In this document: positions 10,916-17,173 of the stretch, in pieces
How positions within the stretch are numbered: position 1 is the first letter of the stretch
How the letters are laid out: every line of letters begins with the position of its first letter
NCBI GenBank assembly: GCA_022842845.1
Contig: JALHOT010000008.1
Coordinates: forward strand, 1 to 60,165
From: Cyclobacteriaceae bacterium
GTDB lineage: Bacteria > Bacteroidota > Bacteroidia > Cytophagales > Cyclobacteriaceae
Length of the DNA: 60,165 bases
Reading direction: 5' to 3'
The notes under the pieces: generated by a model
What the model was told of the DNA's origin: nothing
Databases searched by the model: none
The model's input: only the letters and a program-made list of their open reading frames with translations
Made by a program: the position numbers and the translations under genes

Positions 10916-10943
10916 TGACAACACTGCAGTAACTTACCCCTAT
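10916..10943 (-). promoter_or_regulatory. Candidate ECF-sigma promoter of the TonB receptor gene
   Basis: Read on the minus strand, ATAGGGGTAAG (10943-10933) is followed after exactly 10 bases by GTTGTCA (10922-10916), 22 bases before the receptor ATG. The same two blocks with the same spacing precede the ECF sigma gene at 14361-14334. A GGGGTAA-type -35 block and a GTTGTC-type -10 block fit the general form of ECF promoters (inference). Confidence 0.65.
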
Positions 10944-10959
10944 GTTTGAATTATTTTTC

Positions 10960-12747
10960 TTAGAAAAATCTGAGCCCTACTCGTGCCCCCCACCACAACT
11001 GATAGTCGGTGGTTCTACTAAAGGTGCCCTGATGAATTTTGGAGGGACTATAGTAAGTAAAGAGTTTAGCGTGATTGTCGAATGCTGCATCGTAGATACG
11101 CAGATTCAAGGTACCACCAGCGGCTATGGCCAAGCGTTTACTTAGTTTAAATTCAAAACCTACATAAAGTTTGTTGAGCAGGTTAAGGGCTTCGATGTTG
11201 CCTTTGTTAATATGATTGGAGGTTATGTCTGTATTTAGGTAAAGGCGCTTTGCAAGTTTGGGCGCCACGCCTACCCCATATCCAAAAGACCAGGTGGTAG
11301 TATCAGCATTCTCTGGGCGAACACTGGCCGTGAGAATATTATAGAACTGTCTTACCCCCGTTCTGAGTGAAATGACCACGGGGAATACTTCATCCGCGGC
11401 TAACTCAACTTGATGGTATCCTTTATTAACAAAACTTAAAAAACCAACCGGTACACCCTTTATACTATCAGTTATGTTGATGAAGCCGACTTGTGTACCG
11501 CGAACGGTTTTGGCAATGTTAAGCAGACCTGCCACTTGCGATCCGCCCACTTCTTTGGCAACATTGAAAAGCCCTGCCGCTTGTGCGCCTTTGGCTTTTG
11601 AAGGAGTAAAATTAAAAAGTCCTGCGGCCTGCACGCCTTCAATATCTTCTGTGCTTACATTGAAGAGGCCGGCAAATTGCGGGCCTCCGTAGGTGCCAAG
11701 ATTAAAGTTTATCAAACCCGCAAATTGGGCGCCTTCTGCATTCGCCATATTGGTATTCGCTAATCCGGCAAATTGAATGGCCTTGGTGCTGCCAAGATTG
11801 GAATTGAAAAGTCCGGCAAACTGCACTCCTTGTGTATGCCCACCATTCACATTAAAGAGCCCTGCTAATTGTGCGTAACAAACATCTCCGCTGTTAATGT
11901 TGAATAAACCGCCAAACTCAGCTTTTCTGGTTCCGGCAGAGTAACCTCCCAGTATGTTAAATGAATAGTCGTTTACTACGTTGCCGCTTAGCTTATGATT
12001 AGTGCCAACGAAGGGTACAAGAGAAACTTGCCAGTCGCGCTGAATAGTATCGCGCACGTTGTGCATGTTTATTCTTTGTACGGATTGCTTAGTCCAGCTC
12101 CAAAGTTTATTTAGTTTACTGTCCAGACTGTCTGAGAATATCCGCCATTTTTCTTCATCAATTTTTAAAGAAAGATTTTGGAAAGATGAACGCTTGCTGG
12201 GCACAACCAGTATCGTGTCAGCATACTGACTTTTTTTGATGGCCAGTTGCATTTGTTCTTTAGTGGGCTTCTTCACTTCCAATTGAAAGAAGCCGAATTC
12301 ATCCGTTACGGTTGACTGCAAGGAAATTGGATCGTAAATACTTACCTCTTTTAGTTTTTTGCCAGTCGATTCATCCACCACATAACCGCTTACAACGATG
12401 CCATCGTCATTATCTTTTTTTGTTAAGATAATGTAATTGTTTTTCTGCTTGAATTTGATTCTGCTTTCAAATACACTTTCCAGAATTTCTCTGACTGTAC
12501 TGTTGTTGTAATGCCCGTTAATCACATCAATATTTTGTAAAACGGAGGAACTGTAAGAGAAGGTAAAGCCTCCGGCCTGAGCTAATGCTTTTAAGGCTTC
12601 GTCACTTTTTTGATTTTTGAAAGTAATACTGATGCTTCTTTCAAGTGGTGGCGTTAGGGTTTGAGCTACCAGCACATTACTAACAATGGAAACAATAAGC
12701 AGAGAAATAAACGAAGCGAAGCGAATAAAATTAATCACAACCTTCAC
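10960..12747 (-). CDS. STN-domain protein with carboxypeptidase-regulatory-like domain and LA_2272-type surface repeats
   Basis: 595 residues. A signal peptide (end near VLVAQ) precedes an STN/secretin-TonB N-terminal domain at about residues 38-110 (SISITFKNQKSDEALKAL). STN domains normally contact FecR-type anti-sigma factors in the periplasm. A carboxypeptidase-regulatory-like domain (VVSGYVVDESTGKKL) covers about 130-195. Residues 270-440 hold ten or so tandem repeats of about 17 residues with core QFAGLFN. The last 150 residues look like outer-membrane beta-strands ending in Phe. The start overlaps the FecR stop by 17 bases, so the two are co-transcribed. It probably sits in the outer membrane and relays a surface signal to FecR (inference). 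Confidence 0.78.
   Translation of the reverse strand: MKVVINFIRFASFISLLIVSIVSNVLVAQTLTPPLERSISITFKNQKSDEALKALAQAGGFTFSYSSSVLQNIDVINGHYNNSTVREILESVFESRIKFKQKNNYIILTKKDNDDGIVVSGYVVDESTGKKLKEVSIYDPISLQSTVTDEFGFFQLEVKKPTKEQMQLAIKKSQYADTILVVPSKRSSFQNLSLKIDEEKWRIFSDSLDSKLNKLWSWTKQSVQRINMHNVRDTIQRDWQVSLVPFVGTNHKLSGNVVNDYSFNILGGYSAGTRKAEFGGLFNINSGDVCYAQLAGLFNVNGGHTQGVQFAGLFNSNLGSTKAIQFAGLANTNMANAEGAQFAGLINFNLGTYGGPQFAGLFNVSTEDIEGVQAAGLFNFTPSKAKGAQAAGLFNVAKEVGGSQVAGLLNIAKTVRGTQVGFINITDSIKGVPVGFLSFVNKGYHQVELAADEVFPVVISLRTGVRQFYNILTASVRPENADTTTWSFGYGVGVAPKLAKRLYLNTDITSNHINKGNIEALNLLNKLYVGFEFKLSKRLAIAAGGTLNLRIYDAAFDNHAKLFTYYSPSKIHQGTFSRTTDYQLWWGARVGLRFF
11425..11930 (-). repeat. Tandem 17-residue QFAGLFN surface repeats within the STN protein
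   Basis: The translated region shows successive units with core [QE][FLAV]xGL[FL]N, spaced about 17 residues apart: EFGGLFN, QLAGLFN, QFAGLFN, QFAGLAN, QFAGLIN, QFAGLFN, QAAGLFN, QAAGLFN, QVAGLLN, then degenerate QVGFIN and PVGFLS. The pattern matches the LA_2272-type surface repeats known from Leptospira and Bacteroidota proteins. Confidence 0.8.
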
Positions 12748-13705
12748 CCTCCAGTGTGATGTTCTGCTCCCCGCCTATGACCTTGAGATTTAATGTTTCT
12801 GCAATGATCTCGGCAATAGTATCGATATCTTCATTCTCAAAATTTACTGTTAGTCTGCAACTTTTCAGATTCTCTGATATGCTGATCTTCTTTTCGTAAA
12901 TAGCGTTCAGTTGCTCAACCACAGTTTGTAAATCGGTCTCCTCAAAAACAAATTGACGATTGGCATAAGCCATGATGTTGGTGTCGGCTGCTTCTAACGA
13001 GAACTCCTTACTTAACTTATTGTAGATACCTTTTCCGCCTGCTTTTATAAAGATACCCTGATTATTAGCAGTGTAGAATTGCACCTCCCCTTCTGTTACA
13101 CTTACTTCAACGGTATTACTTTGCTCATAAGCCCGGACATTAAAAACTGTACCTATATCGCGAATGAATACTTCCGCTGCTTCAACAATGAGCTCCTTAT
13201 CCTTTTCATGCTTGATAGCGAAACTTGCTTCTCCTTTTAATTGAATGCGTCCTTTCTTCTTTTTCTCATTATAGGCAATGGATAGTTCGCTTTGTTTGTT
13301 CAGCACTACTTGCGTTCCATCGGGAAGTATATCTTGAATAATACTTGTACTACTGGCCAATTGTGTTGTAGTGTTAAAACCAACAAAAGATTGATAAGCC
13401 CAAAAACCGATTACTGATATGAGTAAAATACTGGCTGCAATTCGAACGAATGAGAAATTGAATTGCCTTGATTTTTGGCTACTCAACTTAGTCTTTAGTA
13501 TGAACCATGCCTTGTCTGCATCATAATGGCCGACATCTATCGACTCTGATGCCTTATCGAAAATAAGTTTAAGGTGCTCATAATATTGTTGGTTTTCGGA
13601 AGAGGTTTTGCACCACACCTCGACAAGCCTGCGCTCTTCGGCACTGGCTTCTCCGGCCAGGTACTTTCCAATTAAATCATCGATATCGAATGCTGGCTTG
13701 CTCAA
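12731..13705 (-). CDS. FecR-family anti-sigma regulator
   Basis: 324 residues. The cytoplasmic part (1-85) has the usual short helical sigma-binding region (DDLIGKYLAGEASAEE). One transmembrane helix follows at about 90-110 (ASILLISVIGFWAYQSF). The periplasmic FecR domain (LPDGTQVVLNKQSEL, about 140-240) and a C-terminal DUF4974-like domain (FEETDLQTVVEQLNAIY) complete it. FecR proteins hold an ECF sigma factor at the membrane until a signal arrives through an STN domain. The start overlaps the sigma stop by four bases (ATGA), indicating translational coupling. Confidence 0.93.
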   Translation of the reverse strand: MSKPAFDIDDLIGKYLAGEASAEERRLVEVWCKTSSENQQYYEHLKLIFDKASESIDVGHYDADKAWFILKTKLSSQKSRQFNFSFVRIAASILLISVIGFWAYQSFVGFNTTTQLASSTSIIQDILPDGTQVVLNKQSELSIAYNEKKKKGRIQLKGEASFAIKHEKDKELIVEAAEVFIRDIGTVFNVRAYEQSNTVEVSVTEGEVQFYTANNQGIFIKAGGKGIYNKLSKEFSLEAADTNIMAYANRQFVFEETDLQTVVEQLNAIYEKKISISENLKSCRLTVNFENEDIDTIAEIIAETLNLKVIGGEQNITLEGEGCD

Positions 13706-14280
13706 TCTAATAGTCCTTTAAAAAGTAATAAAATGATTGGCAGATAATCGCGCAATTCTTCTCTCATCAATTTGAGGGCTTTGCCAATTTGATTCTCCAC
13801 CGTTTTCACTGAGATATTTAACTGATCGGCAATCTCTTGGTACTTCAATTCTTCGAAGCGGCTTAACTTAAATACGAGCCTGCATTGCTCTGGCAACACC
13901 TGCATGGCGGCATAAATTTTTTTCTCAAGCTCATTAGAAAGCACAGTGTCCGAAGTTGATTCAGCATGATTGACCCGCATGTAAACTTCTTGCTGAGCAT
14001 GTGCCTGTTTTACTTTACCATGTTTTATAACATTCAGGCATCGGTTTCGAATGCTCTGGTAGAGGTAAGCTTTTAGTGATGTGGTGATAAAGAGTGAAGT
14101 GCGTTTCTCCCAAATGCCTAAAAATGAAGCCTGCACCACCTCTTCAGCCTCTTCACGATCTTGAAGAAAACTGTGGGCATAACGGCACAGGGCTTGGTAG
14201 TACTCCTTAAAAATCATCTCAAAAGCAGTTTCATTGCCTTCCCGTATGGCTTCCAATAAACTGGTTTCGGATGCTAGCAC
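13702..14280 (-). CDS. ECF RNA polymerase sigma factor (Bacteroidota FecI-type)
   Basis: 192 residues. Region 2 is at about 20-90 (AFEMIFKEYYQALCRYA, then EEAEEVVQASFLGIWE). Region 4 with its helix-turn-helix is at about 125-180 (LPEQCRLVFKLSRFEELKYQEIA, then ISVKTVENQI). Length and motifs match the RpoE-like sigma-70 family that pairs with FecR. It heads the operon sigma-FecR-STN protein. The promoter-like motif 54-81 bases upstream is shared with the TonB receptor gene, which suggests autoregulation and direct control of the receptor (inference). Confidence 0.94.
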   Translation of the reverse strand: MLASETSLLEAIREGNETAFEMIFKEYYQALCRYAHSFLQDREEAEEVVQASFLGIWEKRTSLFITTSLKAYLYQSIRNRCLNVIKHGKVKQAHAQQEVYMRVNHAESTSDTVLSNELEKKIYAAMQVLPEQCRLVFKLSRFEELKYQEIADQLNISVKTVENQIGKALKLMREELRDYLPIILLLFKGLLD

Positions 14281-14333
14281 TGCTTTTTTGTTTAATATCA
14301 GTGCAAAATACGGAAATATGCGATCTGGGGTTG

Positions 14334-14361
14334 TGACAACTCATAGGCCCCTTACCCCTAT
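14334..14361 (-). promoter_or_regulatory. Candidate autoregulatory ECF-sigma promoter
   Basis: On the minus strand ATAGGGGTAAG (14361-14351), a 10-base spacer, then GTTGTCA (14340-14334) lie 53 bases before the sigma ATG. The blocks and spacing are identical to those at 10943-10916 before the TonB receptor, while the spacers differ. This is what a promoter recognised by the same sigma factor would look like. Confidence 0.65.
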
Positions 14362-14440
14362 TTAAGGTCCGGAAATATTTTTTCCCTTAAGTTTTTGCAC
14401 TTTACCTATTAATAACCCACCAATGGATTTTAGGGCAATA

Positions 14441-14471
14441 AAAAACCCCGCGATTATTTCGCGGGGTTTTT
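14441..14471 (-). terminator. Rho-independent terminator of the DUF5117-type protease gene
   Basis: A perfect 13-bp stem (AAAAACCCCGCGA at 14441-14453, complement at 14459-14471) with a 5-base loop. On the minus strand it ends in a run of T. It lies 20 bases past the stop of the protease gene and 161 bases upstream of the sigma start, so it also insulates the ECF operon. Confidence 0.93.
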
Positions 14472-14490: not shown

Positions 14491-17004
14491 CTATTTCGGA
14501 TCTAAAATTTGATTGATGCGTTGTACGGCATCTTCTAAGTGGTATTTTGACATAGCATCTGAAGTACGCGCTATAGCACCATTGATTTGTGTGCGAAGTG
14601 TTTTCAGTTCAGCTCTTACCATGGGTCTGATGTCAGACTGACTTACATCTATAGGTGTGCTACCCATGAAAGCACGGAAGTTGGCTGGCATTGGCGCTGG
14701 CTCCTCCTTCATCAAGTACTCGAGTCTCTCAATATGCGCACGCTGTAAATTTCTGCGGTAAGCATCGATAGTTTTACCGGCTGCTAATTCAGACCAGATG
14801 CCATTGCGCAATTCACTCATCATTTCTAAAGCGGTATAAGTGCTATTGCCCAAGGCTGCCTCTGCTTCCAATAAACGTGCTATGCGGCTAGGATCTAGCA
14901 AATTGTTAAGTGTACCCACCTGTGCATTGCGGATACGATCCAATGAACCAGCATTCTCAATTTTTTTCAGAATGTTTTGGTCTAACATCCAGGTTGGTGT
15001 AGCAAAAGTTTCTTTCTGCAAATAAGCCATGGCTTTCTTCTGCACATCCTTTGGAACCGGAACAAAGACATTGCCAGCTTGTTCATAAGACTTAGGGGTG
15101 TCGTACACACCACCGATGTTGGCGCGTACATGGCCGTTGTAACGGTTCCACTGGCCTAACACTTGTCCATACAGTTCAGCTAATTCATCATAGTTTTCAC
15201 CTTCTTGCTTGGTCCACTCAATTAGGTTTGGCACAATACGCTTTAGGTTGGCAACACCATAGGTGCTGGCTTTCATTGCATCATTACCCAAATCCTCAGA
15301 TTGTGAGCGTGGATCTTGTGGATTACCTGTTTGACGACCGTAGAAGTACACAGGATTGCTGGCCTTCTCAAGAATCCATTTGTTTAAAATGGCTTTTTCT
15401 TCTTCTGCAGTTTTGGCTTCCGGAATGTATTTGTAGCCCCACATTACAGCATACTTATCGTACTCCCCTACGTCAGGCATAAGTGAAACACCTTTATCTT
15501 CTGGTTGCGCAATGTAATTGAAACGTGCATAGTCCATAATCGAAGGAGCTGTTCCACTCTTTGAAGTGAAAGTAGCAGAGCGCAAAGAATCTACCGGGTA
15601 AGCAAAACTTGACCCGAAGTTGTGAGGGAGACCGAGTGTATGCCCTACTTCGTGTGATGATACAAAGCGGATAAGACGACCCATTACTTCATCTTTAAAC
15701 TTAACACCGCGCGCATCGGGATTGATGGCAGCCGTTTGGATGAAGAACCAATTGCGTAATAAGTTCATTACATTGTGGTACCAGCCAATATCACTTTCTA
15801 AAATTTCACCAGAGCGTGGATCGGCTACGTGCGGGCCGTAAGCATTCTGAATATCGGAGGCGAAGTAGCGAATAACAGAGTAGCGTGCGTCCTCCGGGCT
15901 CCAATCAGGGTCCTGTTCTTTGGTAGGAGCATCTTTAGCGGTAATGGCATTTTTAAAACCTGCTCTTTCAAAGGCTTTATTCCAATCTTCAACGCCTTGC
16001 TTCAAGTAAGGTCTCCATTTTTCTGGAGTAGCAGGATCGATATAGTAAACGATTTGCTTCTTAGGTTCTACCAATTCGCCACGCTTATAGGCTTCAACAT
16101 CTTTAGGTTCAAGTCTCCATCTTCTGATATAAGAAGTAGTCACTGCTTTTTGTGCATCTTGTCCATAATCAACTTGTGATTGAGCAAAGAAGCCAACGCG
16201 ATCGTCAGCCAAGCGAGGCATCATGGCTTTTTTAGGAAGCAACACCATGGAGTTGTTCATTTCGAGAGAAATAGAACCAACACTCGCATTGGAAGGAGCT
16301 TCGCCTGCTTTGTAAGTAAGCACATGGCGTGCCTCTATGTTGATAGGGAAACTTTTAATGTGTTCAATAAAAGTGCGGCTTTCGTCTAGTGAAGTGACTT
16401 TGAACTGTTTTCTGCGCGCATCATCAAAACCAATTGCAGGCACATCTTTTGTGAACAAGCTGGTGGTTTCGATTACCAAAGAAGAGTCTTTTCCAAAGGC
16501 TTTGATATCGAAAGTCTGTATAATGGGTTCGAAATTAGAGTTGCGAACTGATAAAGACATCGGGGAGTTTTCATCGGCAATGTTGTTGTAAGACACTACG
16601 CGTAACAAAACCTTTTTGTCTTTCTTGTGCCATCGCACCACCTGGTTGCGCACATTTTCACCTCCATAACCAATATCATCGGCAGTTTTAGCAATGCGTG
16701 TTACCAGCAGCATTTCGCGCTCCAGTAGTGAATCAGGTATTTCATAAAAATACTTGTCTTCAATCTTGTGGACTTTAAACAAACCATCATCGCTCACCGC
16801 TTTGGCAGTAATTACTTTATCGTAGGCCTGTATGCCACCGCTTTCTTTTTTCTCCCCGTTAGCTGCCGGAGCAGCTGCCGGGGCTGGAGTGCTGGCAGGC
16901 GCTTTCTTACTTTTCTTTTGGGCAAGAACAGGGGAGCCAACAGCCATCAAGAAAGCTGCCAGCAAAACCGTTGATCTTACCGGTTGGGTAAAGACTATTT
17001 TCAT
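14491..17004 (-). CDS. Exported zinc metalloprotease of the DUF5117/DUF5118 type
   Basis: About 837 residues from ATG 17004. An upstream in-frame ATG at 17103 would add 33 residues ahead of a second, more typical signal peptide (MKIVFTQPVRS, cleavage near VLAQK), so I prefer 17004. The zinc motif HEVGHTLGLPHNF is complete (His451, Glu452, His455, His461 counted from 17004), as in metzincin-like DUF5117 proteins. N-terminal beta domains precede it, and a C-terminal helical DUF4953-like region follows. These proteins are common and uncharacterised in Bacteroidota; proteolytic activity is inferred from the motif. The gene is monocistronic, with its own terminator, and divergent from the GNAT gene. 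Confidence 0.88.
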   Translation of the reverse strand: MKIVFTQPVRSTVLLAAFLMAVGSPVLAQKKSKKAPASTPAPAAAPAANGEKKESGGIQAYDKVITAKAVSDDGLFKVHKIEDKYFYEIPDSLLEREMLLVTRIAKTADDIGYGGENVRNQVVRWHKKDKKVLLRVVSYNNIADENSPMSLSVRNSNFEPIIQTFDIKAFGKDSSLVIETTSLFTKDVPAIGFDDARRKQFKVTSLDESRTFIEHIKSFPINIEARHVLTYKAGEAPSNASVGSISLEMNNSMVLLPKKAMMPRLADDRVGFFAQSQVDYGQDAQKAVTTSYIRRWRLEPKDVEAYKRGELVEPKKQIVYYIDPATPEKWRPYLKQGVEDWNKAFERAGFKNAITAKDAPTKEQDPDWSPEDARYSVIRYFASDIQNAYGPHVADPRSGEILESDIGWYHNVMNLLRNWFFIQTAAINPDARGVKFKDEVMGRLIRFVSSHEVGHTLGLPHNFGSSFAYPVDSLRSATFTSKSGTAPSIMDYARFNYIAQPEDKGVSLMPDVGEYDKYAVMWGYKYIPEAKTAEEEKAILNKWILEKASNPVYFYGRQTGNPQDPRSQSEDLGNDAMKASTYGVANLKRIVPNLIEWTKQEGENYDELAELYGQVLGQWNRYNGHVRANIGGVYDTPKSYEQAGNVFVPVPKDVQKKAMAYLQKETFATPTWMLDQNILKKIENAGSLDRIRNAQVGTLNNLLDPSRIARLLEAEAALGNSTYTALEMMSELRNGIWSELAAGKTIDAYRRNLQRAHIERLEYLMKEEPAPMPANFRAFMGSTPIDVSQSDIRPMVRAELKTLRTQINGAIARTSDAMSKYHLEDAVQRINQILDPK

Positions 17005-17173
17005 GTTTTTTGGGTTTATCACAAGGCAAAGTATTAGCAAATAAGGGCCACATAAAAGCAGGCAAACACTGAAGGTAAAAGTGCCTGATAAGCGGGTATT
17101 CATGGTCGCTAAAAGGATGGAGAAGTCTCAGTATCTCACTTAATTTGCGTGATAAGCACTTAAATCTTACAAG

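Follow-up and report, generated by a model that had tools for sequence, protein, structure and literature searches.

What is the two-block sequence that stands ahead of both an extracytoplasmic function (ECF) sigma factor gene and a TonB-dependent receptor gene on contig JALHOT010000008.1 of a Cyclobacteriaceae bacterium (assembly GCA_022842845.1), which protein would read it, and which genes would it govern? What the DNA shows directly is the motif, how well it is conserved, that it goes with this sigma lineage and that it precedes these genes. We consider it highly probable that the motif is a -35/-10 promoter used by the adjoining ECF sigma factor for its own operon, for the receptor gene and for further envelope genes, and that in many related bacteria it likewise marks a limited group of genes of the cell envelope.

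The motif and its conservation

The window, by which we mean the whole stretch of 60,165 bases that was analysed, contains two copies of ATAGGGGTAAG-N10-GTTGTCA, both on the minus strand and both with 0 mismatches over the 18 block bases, so that the identical blocks and differing spacers described in the initial annotation were recovered exactly (positions in Table 1). At up to three mismatches these two copies were the only matches in the 60,165 bases, and 100 dinucleotide shuffles of the window gave a mean of 0.04 matches, a largest value of 1 and in no case two. The genome-wide search at 2-3 mismatches that the annotation had proposed was run with the 28-base-pair pattern on the whole genome (3,757,720 bases, 47 contigs) and returned five matches at up to three mismatches (two exact, one with two mismatches and two with three), compared with two for the reversed pattern.

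Conservation was read in relatives taken from named genomes by alignment of the sigma protein, with no DNA motif entering the selection; the best 80 of at least 573 confirmed relatives were used. Most of the 80 locus titles name what we take to be groups of Cytophagales, and two give only Bacteroides or Bacteroidetes. The pattern TAGGGGTAA-N12-TTGTC, searched up to 250 nucleotides (nt) upstream of the sigma start, was present in 28 of the 80 loci without mismatch, in 56 at up to one mismatch and in 67 at up to two. The corresponding averages for 20 letter shuffles were 0, 0 and 0.15, and the reversed pattern gave 0 in all three classes; with the shuffles of the window, these values led us to reject a chance origin of the motif. 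Outside the system, the same 80 loci held 1, 4 and 7 matches in 1,574,374 strand-bases. The spacing was equally constrained, a spacer of 12 being found in 56 of 80 leaders at up to one mismatch and every other length from 7 to 18 in 0 or 1.

Across related genomes the conserved core is T[AG]GGGGTAA-N12-TTGTC, then [ATC]TA. The logo of the 67 leaders reads T[AG]GGGGTAAA, nine variable bases, [AG][AG]TTGTC[ATC]TA and then AA at +34/+35, counted from the first T of the motif, with each of these two A residues present in 88% of leaders. Note that these leaders were picked by the pattern, which favours the bases within it, and that only bases outside it, such as the TA after TTGTC and the AA, are free of this effect. 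The blocks first delimited are slightly longer than these conserved elements: the G that ended the first block is not fixed (14% G, 64% A), nor is the G that opened the second (64% G, 26% A). Note also that the sets of loci and genomes compared here overlap and are not independent (the same genomes recur, e.g., L151/G002, L175/G019 and L184/G027; L127 repeats L076 and L114 repeats L078).

The motif could instead be an operator for a DNA-binding regulator of the same envelope genes, with a housekeeping promoter providing transcription, an explanation that we regard as improbable. The sigma gene may indeed have another promoter, since TATTTTGCA lies about 20 nt before its GTG start and TAnnTTG, a sequence near the housekeeping TAnnTTTG, occurs in 38 of the 45 sigma leaders compared (the window and the 44 of the 80 loci with a 40-62 nt gap). 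TAnnTTTG at -7 is the Bacteroidota housekeeping promoter element according to the available part of PMC7366714. Of the two-gap-four patterns in 680 intergenic leaders taken from these loci, it had the strongest strand bias (101 vs 31), and is thus enriched before open reading frames (ORFs) in this clade too, with a near-match in the sigma leader. The ECF-type motif, however, is unlike TAnnTTTG, and the 66-nt gap before the receptor gene contains neither TAnnTTTG nor TAnnTTG. The motif is moreover non-palindromic, its two blocks are held at an invariant 12-nt gap, and the conserved AA falls at the expected start site. It also mostly faces the start of an ORF: an ORF of at least 120 amino acids begins within 130 nt on the same strand at 119 of the 154 matches found in the 80 loci at up to two mismatches, compared with 140 of 2000 random positions. 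Block structure, fixed spacing and orientation agree with the promoter-type element that the initial annotation had described. A motif scattered through coding sequence, which it had named as grounds for refutation, was not found in the organism's own genome, where all four sites at up to one mismatch lie outside long ORFs and 18-53 nt ahead of an ORF. We find it plausible that a basal housekeeping promoter and ECF feedback are combined at the sigma leader, the putative element being one base short of TAnnTTTG.

Assignment to one sigma lineage

The link between the putative -35/-10 promoter and the adjoining sigma factor was examined with a weight matrix trained on 64 of 77 loci from other genera (L154-L230); the 13 loci without a site at up to two mismatches and the same-genus loci L151-L153 were left out. 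The sigma-leader site scored 35.1 and the receptor site 26.0, ranking first and second in the window, and the next position on either strand scored 3.8. Own-genome sites on other contigs scored 33.1 (L003) and 22.3 (L005). For comparison, 200 shuffled 3-kb loci had a median score of -3.4 and a 95% point of 4.4.

The genome contains 27 matches to the bacteroidal ECF model, this sigma factor included, and ECF factors can share promoters, so that the motif might serve a different alternative sigma factor or be common to many ECF factors of the genome. The best matrix score at the 26 other ECF-like loci was 2.2, at background level, and a promoter common to the genome's ECF factors was rejected on this basis. 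Eleven genomes with a close orthologue of the sigma factor contained 32 motif matches at up to one mismatch, compared with 5 for the reversed pattern, and nine genomes behind the named loci (that of L180 being left out) contained 53 compared with 20. Because the excess is seen where a close orthologue of this sigma factor is present and the site recurs in the leader of the sigma gene itself across many genera, use by another sigma factor seems to us slightly less probable still than an operator. The matrix and the orthologue excess support the earlier proposal that the motif is the likely recognition sequence of this sigma factor. That the two copies, with 18 identical bases within 3.4 kb, represent a recent local duplication without shared function can practically be dismissed, as had been anticipated, given that their spacers differ, that copies occur on other contigs of the same genome, and that each site is kept at its own gene in other genera.

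Genes behind the motif and the locus that contains it

The four own-genome sites precede the sigma gene, the receptor gene, a gene for a DUF2807 protein on contig 29 and a gene for a 213-residue protein on contig 2. The DUF2807 protein carries a GIN domain (PF10988, E=6.8e-28) and a lipoprotein-like start; the 213-residue protein has no Pfam match. Both families recur behind the motif in relatives, the former in G003 and G027 (L088, L091) and the latter in G001, G003 and the genome of L160 (L102, L109, L245).

ORFs next to the motif were looked up at 92 loci, and for 8 of these none lay within 350 nt. Among the 154 matches in the 80 loci, 144 precede ORFs that fall into just six sequence clusters: sigma factor (67), DUF2807 family (25), repeat protein (24), receptor (21), a 217-residue protein (5) and a 254-residue DUF2807 protein (2). 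The ten matches outside these clusters all have two mismatches. Every member of the DUF2807 cluster (25/25) matches the DUF2807 protein of the organism itself, and every member of the repeat-protein cluster (24/24) matches the 595-residue envelope protein of the window, 10 including its STN-bearing N-terminal part and 14 not. Relatives of the repeat protein that lack the STN part and stand behind the same promoter were seen, for example, in L176, L178, L180 and L185.

On the strand opposite to the sigma leaders, matches were found in 1, 9 and 15 of the 80 loci at 0, up to one and up to two mismatches, and the 15 point at a divergent DUF2807-family gene (12 loci) or at the receptor gene (3 loci). 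The divergent DUF2807-family gene with its own promoter copy occurs in L190, L193, L204, L212, L215, L216, L218, L219, L224, L225, L228 and L230.

Receptor homologues were present in 32 loci, 22 of them with a site at up to three mismatches in the preceding 120 nt. Three relatives, G001, G003 and G019, have the sigma gene and the receptor orthologue or homologue on different contigs, and the motif is kept at the receptor gene (L096, L104, L112). The claim that the sigma factor drives its own operon and, independently, the receptor gene therefore holds as far as sequence can tell.

Table 1. Features of the sigma factor locus, listed in the direction of transcription.
Feature	Position	Strand	Details
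Met-zincin (DUF4953/DUF5117/DUF5118) metallopeptidase gene	14491-17034	minus	adjoins the system
Terminator-like hairpin and T-run	14438..14466	minus	after the metallopeptidase gene and before the sigma operon; CCCCGCG-AAATAAT-CGCGGGG-TTTTTT, read by eye from the sequence
Predicted ECF promoter of the sigma-fecR-STN operon	14334..14361	minus	motif copy before the sigma gene, read 14361-14334; -35 TAGGGGTAA, 12-nt spacer, -10 TTGTC; spacer of the N10 form GGGCCTATGA; exact match, matrix 35.1
Predicted transcription start, sigma operon	14325..14326	minus	from the conserved AA; window copy reads A-G
Possible second, housekeeping-type promoter (-7 element)	14302..14310	minus	TATTTTGCA; TAnnTTGCA-type element; TAnnTTG in 38/45 sigma leaders
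ECF sigma factor gene, 192 amino acids, GTG start	13702..14280 (stop codon included)	minus	TIGR02985
FecR-like anti-sigma factor gene, 324 amino acids by first TTG	12731..13705	minus	overlaps sigma stop; PF04773, PF16344
Envelope protein gene, 595 amino acids	10960..12747	minus	overlaps fecR end; STN-like, carboxypeptidase-regulatory-like and beta-rich domains
Predicted ECF promoter of the receptor gene	10916..10943	minus	motif copy before the receptor gene, read 10943-10916, in the 66-nt gap after the STN gene; spacer TTACTGCAGT; exact match, matrix 26.0
Predicted transcription start, receptor gene	10908	minus	15 nt before ATG; from the conserved AA position
TonB-dependent-receptor-like protein gene, 782 amino acids	8545..10893	minus	CarboxypepD_reg domain and plug

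The products of the locus were assigned by domain searches. The sigma protein matches TIGR02985 (E=2.4e-53, 180.6 bits against a cut-off of 126.4), with Sigma70_r2 and Sigma70_r4_2 also over cut-off. The FecR protein matches PF04773 FecR (53.1 bits) and PF16344 FecR_C (40.6 bits), both over cut-off, and a fecR match follows the sigma gene in 80 of 80 related loci. The receptor matches PF13620 (E=2e-17) and PF07715 Plug (E=4.9e-5). The Met-zincin gene, separated from the system in the window by the hairpin, adjoins it also in L063 and L064.

The 595-residue protein consists of a signal helix, an STN-like domain, a carboxypeptidase-regulatory-like domain and a beta-rich C-terminal domain with AGLFN repeats. 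Searched in isolation, its N-terminus matches STN (PF07660, E=7.8e-5), and an alignment of the family (64 of the 76 STN proteins found plus the window protein) has STN at E<=0.01 in 60 of 65 members, the window protein included. The receptor of the window showed no STN at E<=1 and its six relatives none at E<=0.01 (0/7). An AlphaFold2 model built from the 65-sequence alignment (mean predicted local distance difference test score 92.8, predicted template modelling score 0.75) has a long beta-rich C-terminal domain. Below E=0.001, a Foldseek search with this model found only a transthyretin-like domain (5aq0, E=4e-4), and porins and small barrels gave only weak partial matches (BpsOmp38, E=1.8e-3, TM 0.14 by query length). 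The one convincing match in a profile search of solved structures covered the carboxypeptidase-like stretch (SusC-homologue domain, 9hfj, E=6.1e-5). The C-terminal domain may be a barrel, judging from the strand pattern of the model and the aromatic C-terminus, with no fold match. We propose that the protein is a signal transducer, and the domain types suggest that it interacts with FecR.

A proposed pathway and its relation to known systems

A number of observations weigh against this assignment of the promoter or limit it. Shuffled 3-kb loci reach a matrix score of 14.9, though far below 26, and at up to two mismatches the matches in the organism's own genome are at background level (18 vs 15 reversed); these two-mismatch matches carried no weight because the reversed pattern is about as frequent. 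Of the 13 sigma leaders without a match at up to two mismatches, 9 have a three-mismatch site in 400 nt, in 8 cases 77-163 nt before the start and in L221 as far as 314 nt upstream; the remaining four (L190, L191, L202 and L226, 4/80) have none over this distance, even when three mismatches are allowed. The orthologue in G021 lacks the motif just before the sigma gene, the nearest site (one mismatch) lying about 850 nt upstream. The sigma leaders of L069, L200, L205 and L214 keep the -35 block and have TTTTC or GTTTC in place of TTGTC in the -10 block, and the -10 preference of these lineages may thus have shifted. Ten of the 32 receptor homologues have no site at up to three mismatches in the preceding 120 nt, and the STN match of the window's 595-residue protein is below the Pfam curated cut-off.

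Finally, 48 other relatives without a close orthologue of the sigma factor showed no motif excess (49 matches vs 65 reversed; the last base of the pattern was A-or-T in this slightly looser count and A in the count of 11 genomes). This absence fits a motif specific to the sigma factor. Eight of these 49 matches have a sigma relative no more than 4 kb away (two in G013 and one each in G008, G011, G020, G026, G040 and G051), and the motif stands between sigma and fecR in five more distant relatives, G032, G011 and G013 (L075, L076, L078) and G026 and G020 (L124, L130). Together, these two observations indicate that the motif follows the system.

With the motif taken as the promoter of this sigma lineage, a regulatory cycle can be proposed. 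The FecR-like anti-sigma factor would hold the sigma factor inactive and then let go, and the freed sigma factor would bind the motif and start transcription from the conserved AA. It would thereby transcribe its own operon (sigma, fecR and the STN protein), a positive feedback to which the housekeeping-like element in the sigma leader may supply basal expression. Separate promoter copies would direct the transcription of the TonB-dependent receptor gene and, elsewhere in the genome, of the genes for the DUF2807 and 213-residue proteins. The separate beta-rich envelope protein, and not the receptor, would pass on the signal by way of its STN domain. A more complete version, about equally likely to hold or to fail, is a Cytophagales pathway with a transducer that is not a transporter. 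A dedicated STN-bearing repeat beta-barrel would signal to FecR. By means of a single promoter of high conservation, the sigma factor would then activate its own gene along with those for a receptor without STN, for relatives of the repeat protein that likewise lack it, and for surface proteins of the GIN/DUF2807 type.

An autoregulated ECF system is in itself of a known kind, and the following comparisons refer to the available parts of the publications cited. FecI/FecR/FecA cell-surface signalling of Escherichia coli (PMC9249621) resembles the present system in its ECF sigma factor, the adjoining gene for a FecR-type regulator and an envelope protein with a domain of the STN type; in the present system a predicted promoter of the sigma type also precedes the gene of a TonB-dependent receptor. 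In E. coli, however, FecA itself contains the signalling domain and fecIR is transcribed by sigma-70, whereas here STN was found on a separate protein and not on the receptor, and the sigma operon carries the same promoter sequence as its predicted target. The Das/Dma pairs of Bacteroides thetaiotaomicron join a sigma factor to a dual-membrane-spanning anti-sigma factor (PMC13088901). As here, a Bacteroidota ECF sigma factor is linked to a beta-barrel part that the available text does not describe as a TonB transporter. Unlike Dma, a single protein with an anti-sigma domain, a membrane helix, a disordered tether and a barrel, the present system carries its FecR domains and its STN and beta-rich domains on two separate ORFs. 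The SM6 promoter motif of Flavobacterium psychrophilum was likewise assigned by computation to ECF sigma factors (PMC9723704); beside it, the motif described here has a -10 block TTGTC with a GGGGTAA -35 block.

Recognition sequences are known, as far as the available sources go, for few Bacteroidota ECF sigma factors, namely EcfO, the SM6 motif and a tentative, non-significant motif for SigW-1, and the link between a lineage and its promoter therefore matters here. Among the matches listed by our searches of the open-licence literature, no description of the motif or of the system was found. Within the literature searched, the promoter sequence of this lineage, the conserved envelope regulon and the location of STN on a separate protein appear to be new. 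Relative to the initial annotation, the two further own-genome sites, the possible second promoter in the sigma leader and the lack of an STN match on the receptor are additions.

By sequence alone, and in many genera, one sigma lineage can be tied to one promoter and to a limited group of envelope genes. The DUF2807, repeat-barrel and receptor proteins, whose function is unstudied, would gain a shared regulator and become testable. The arrangement further suggests that an envelope protein other than a TonB transporter can operate FecR-type signalling. If the proposed pathway is true, import and sensing, which are fused in FecA, would be functions of separate proteins in these bacteria.

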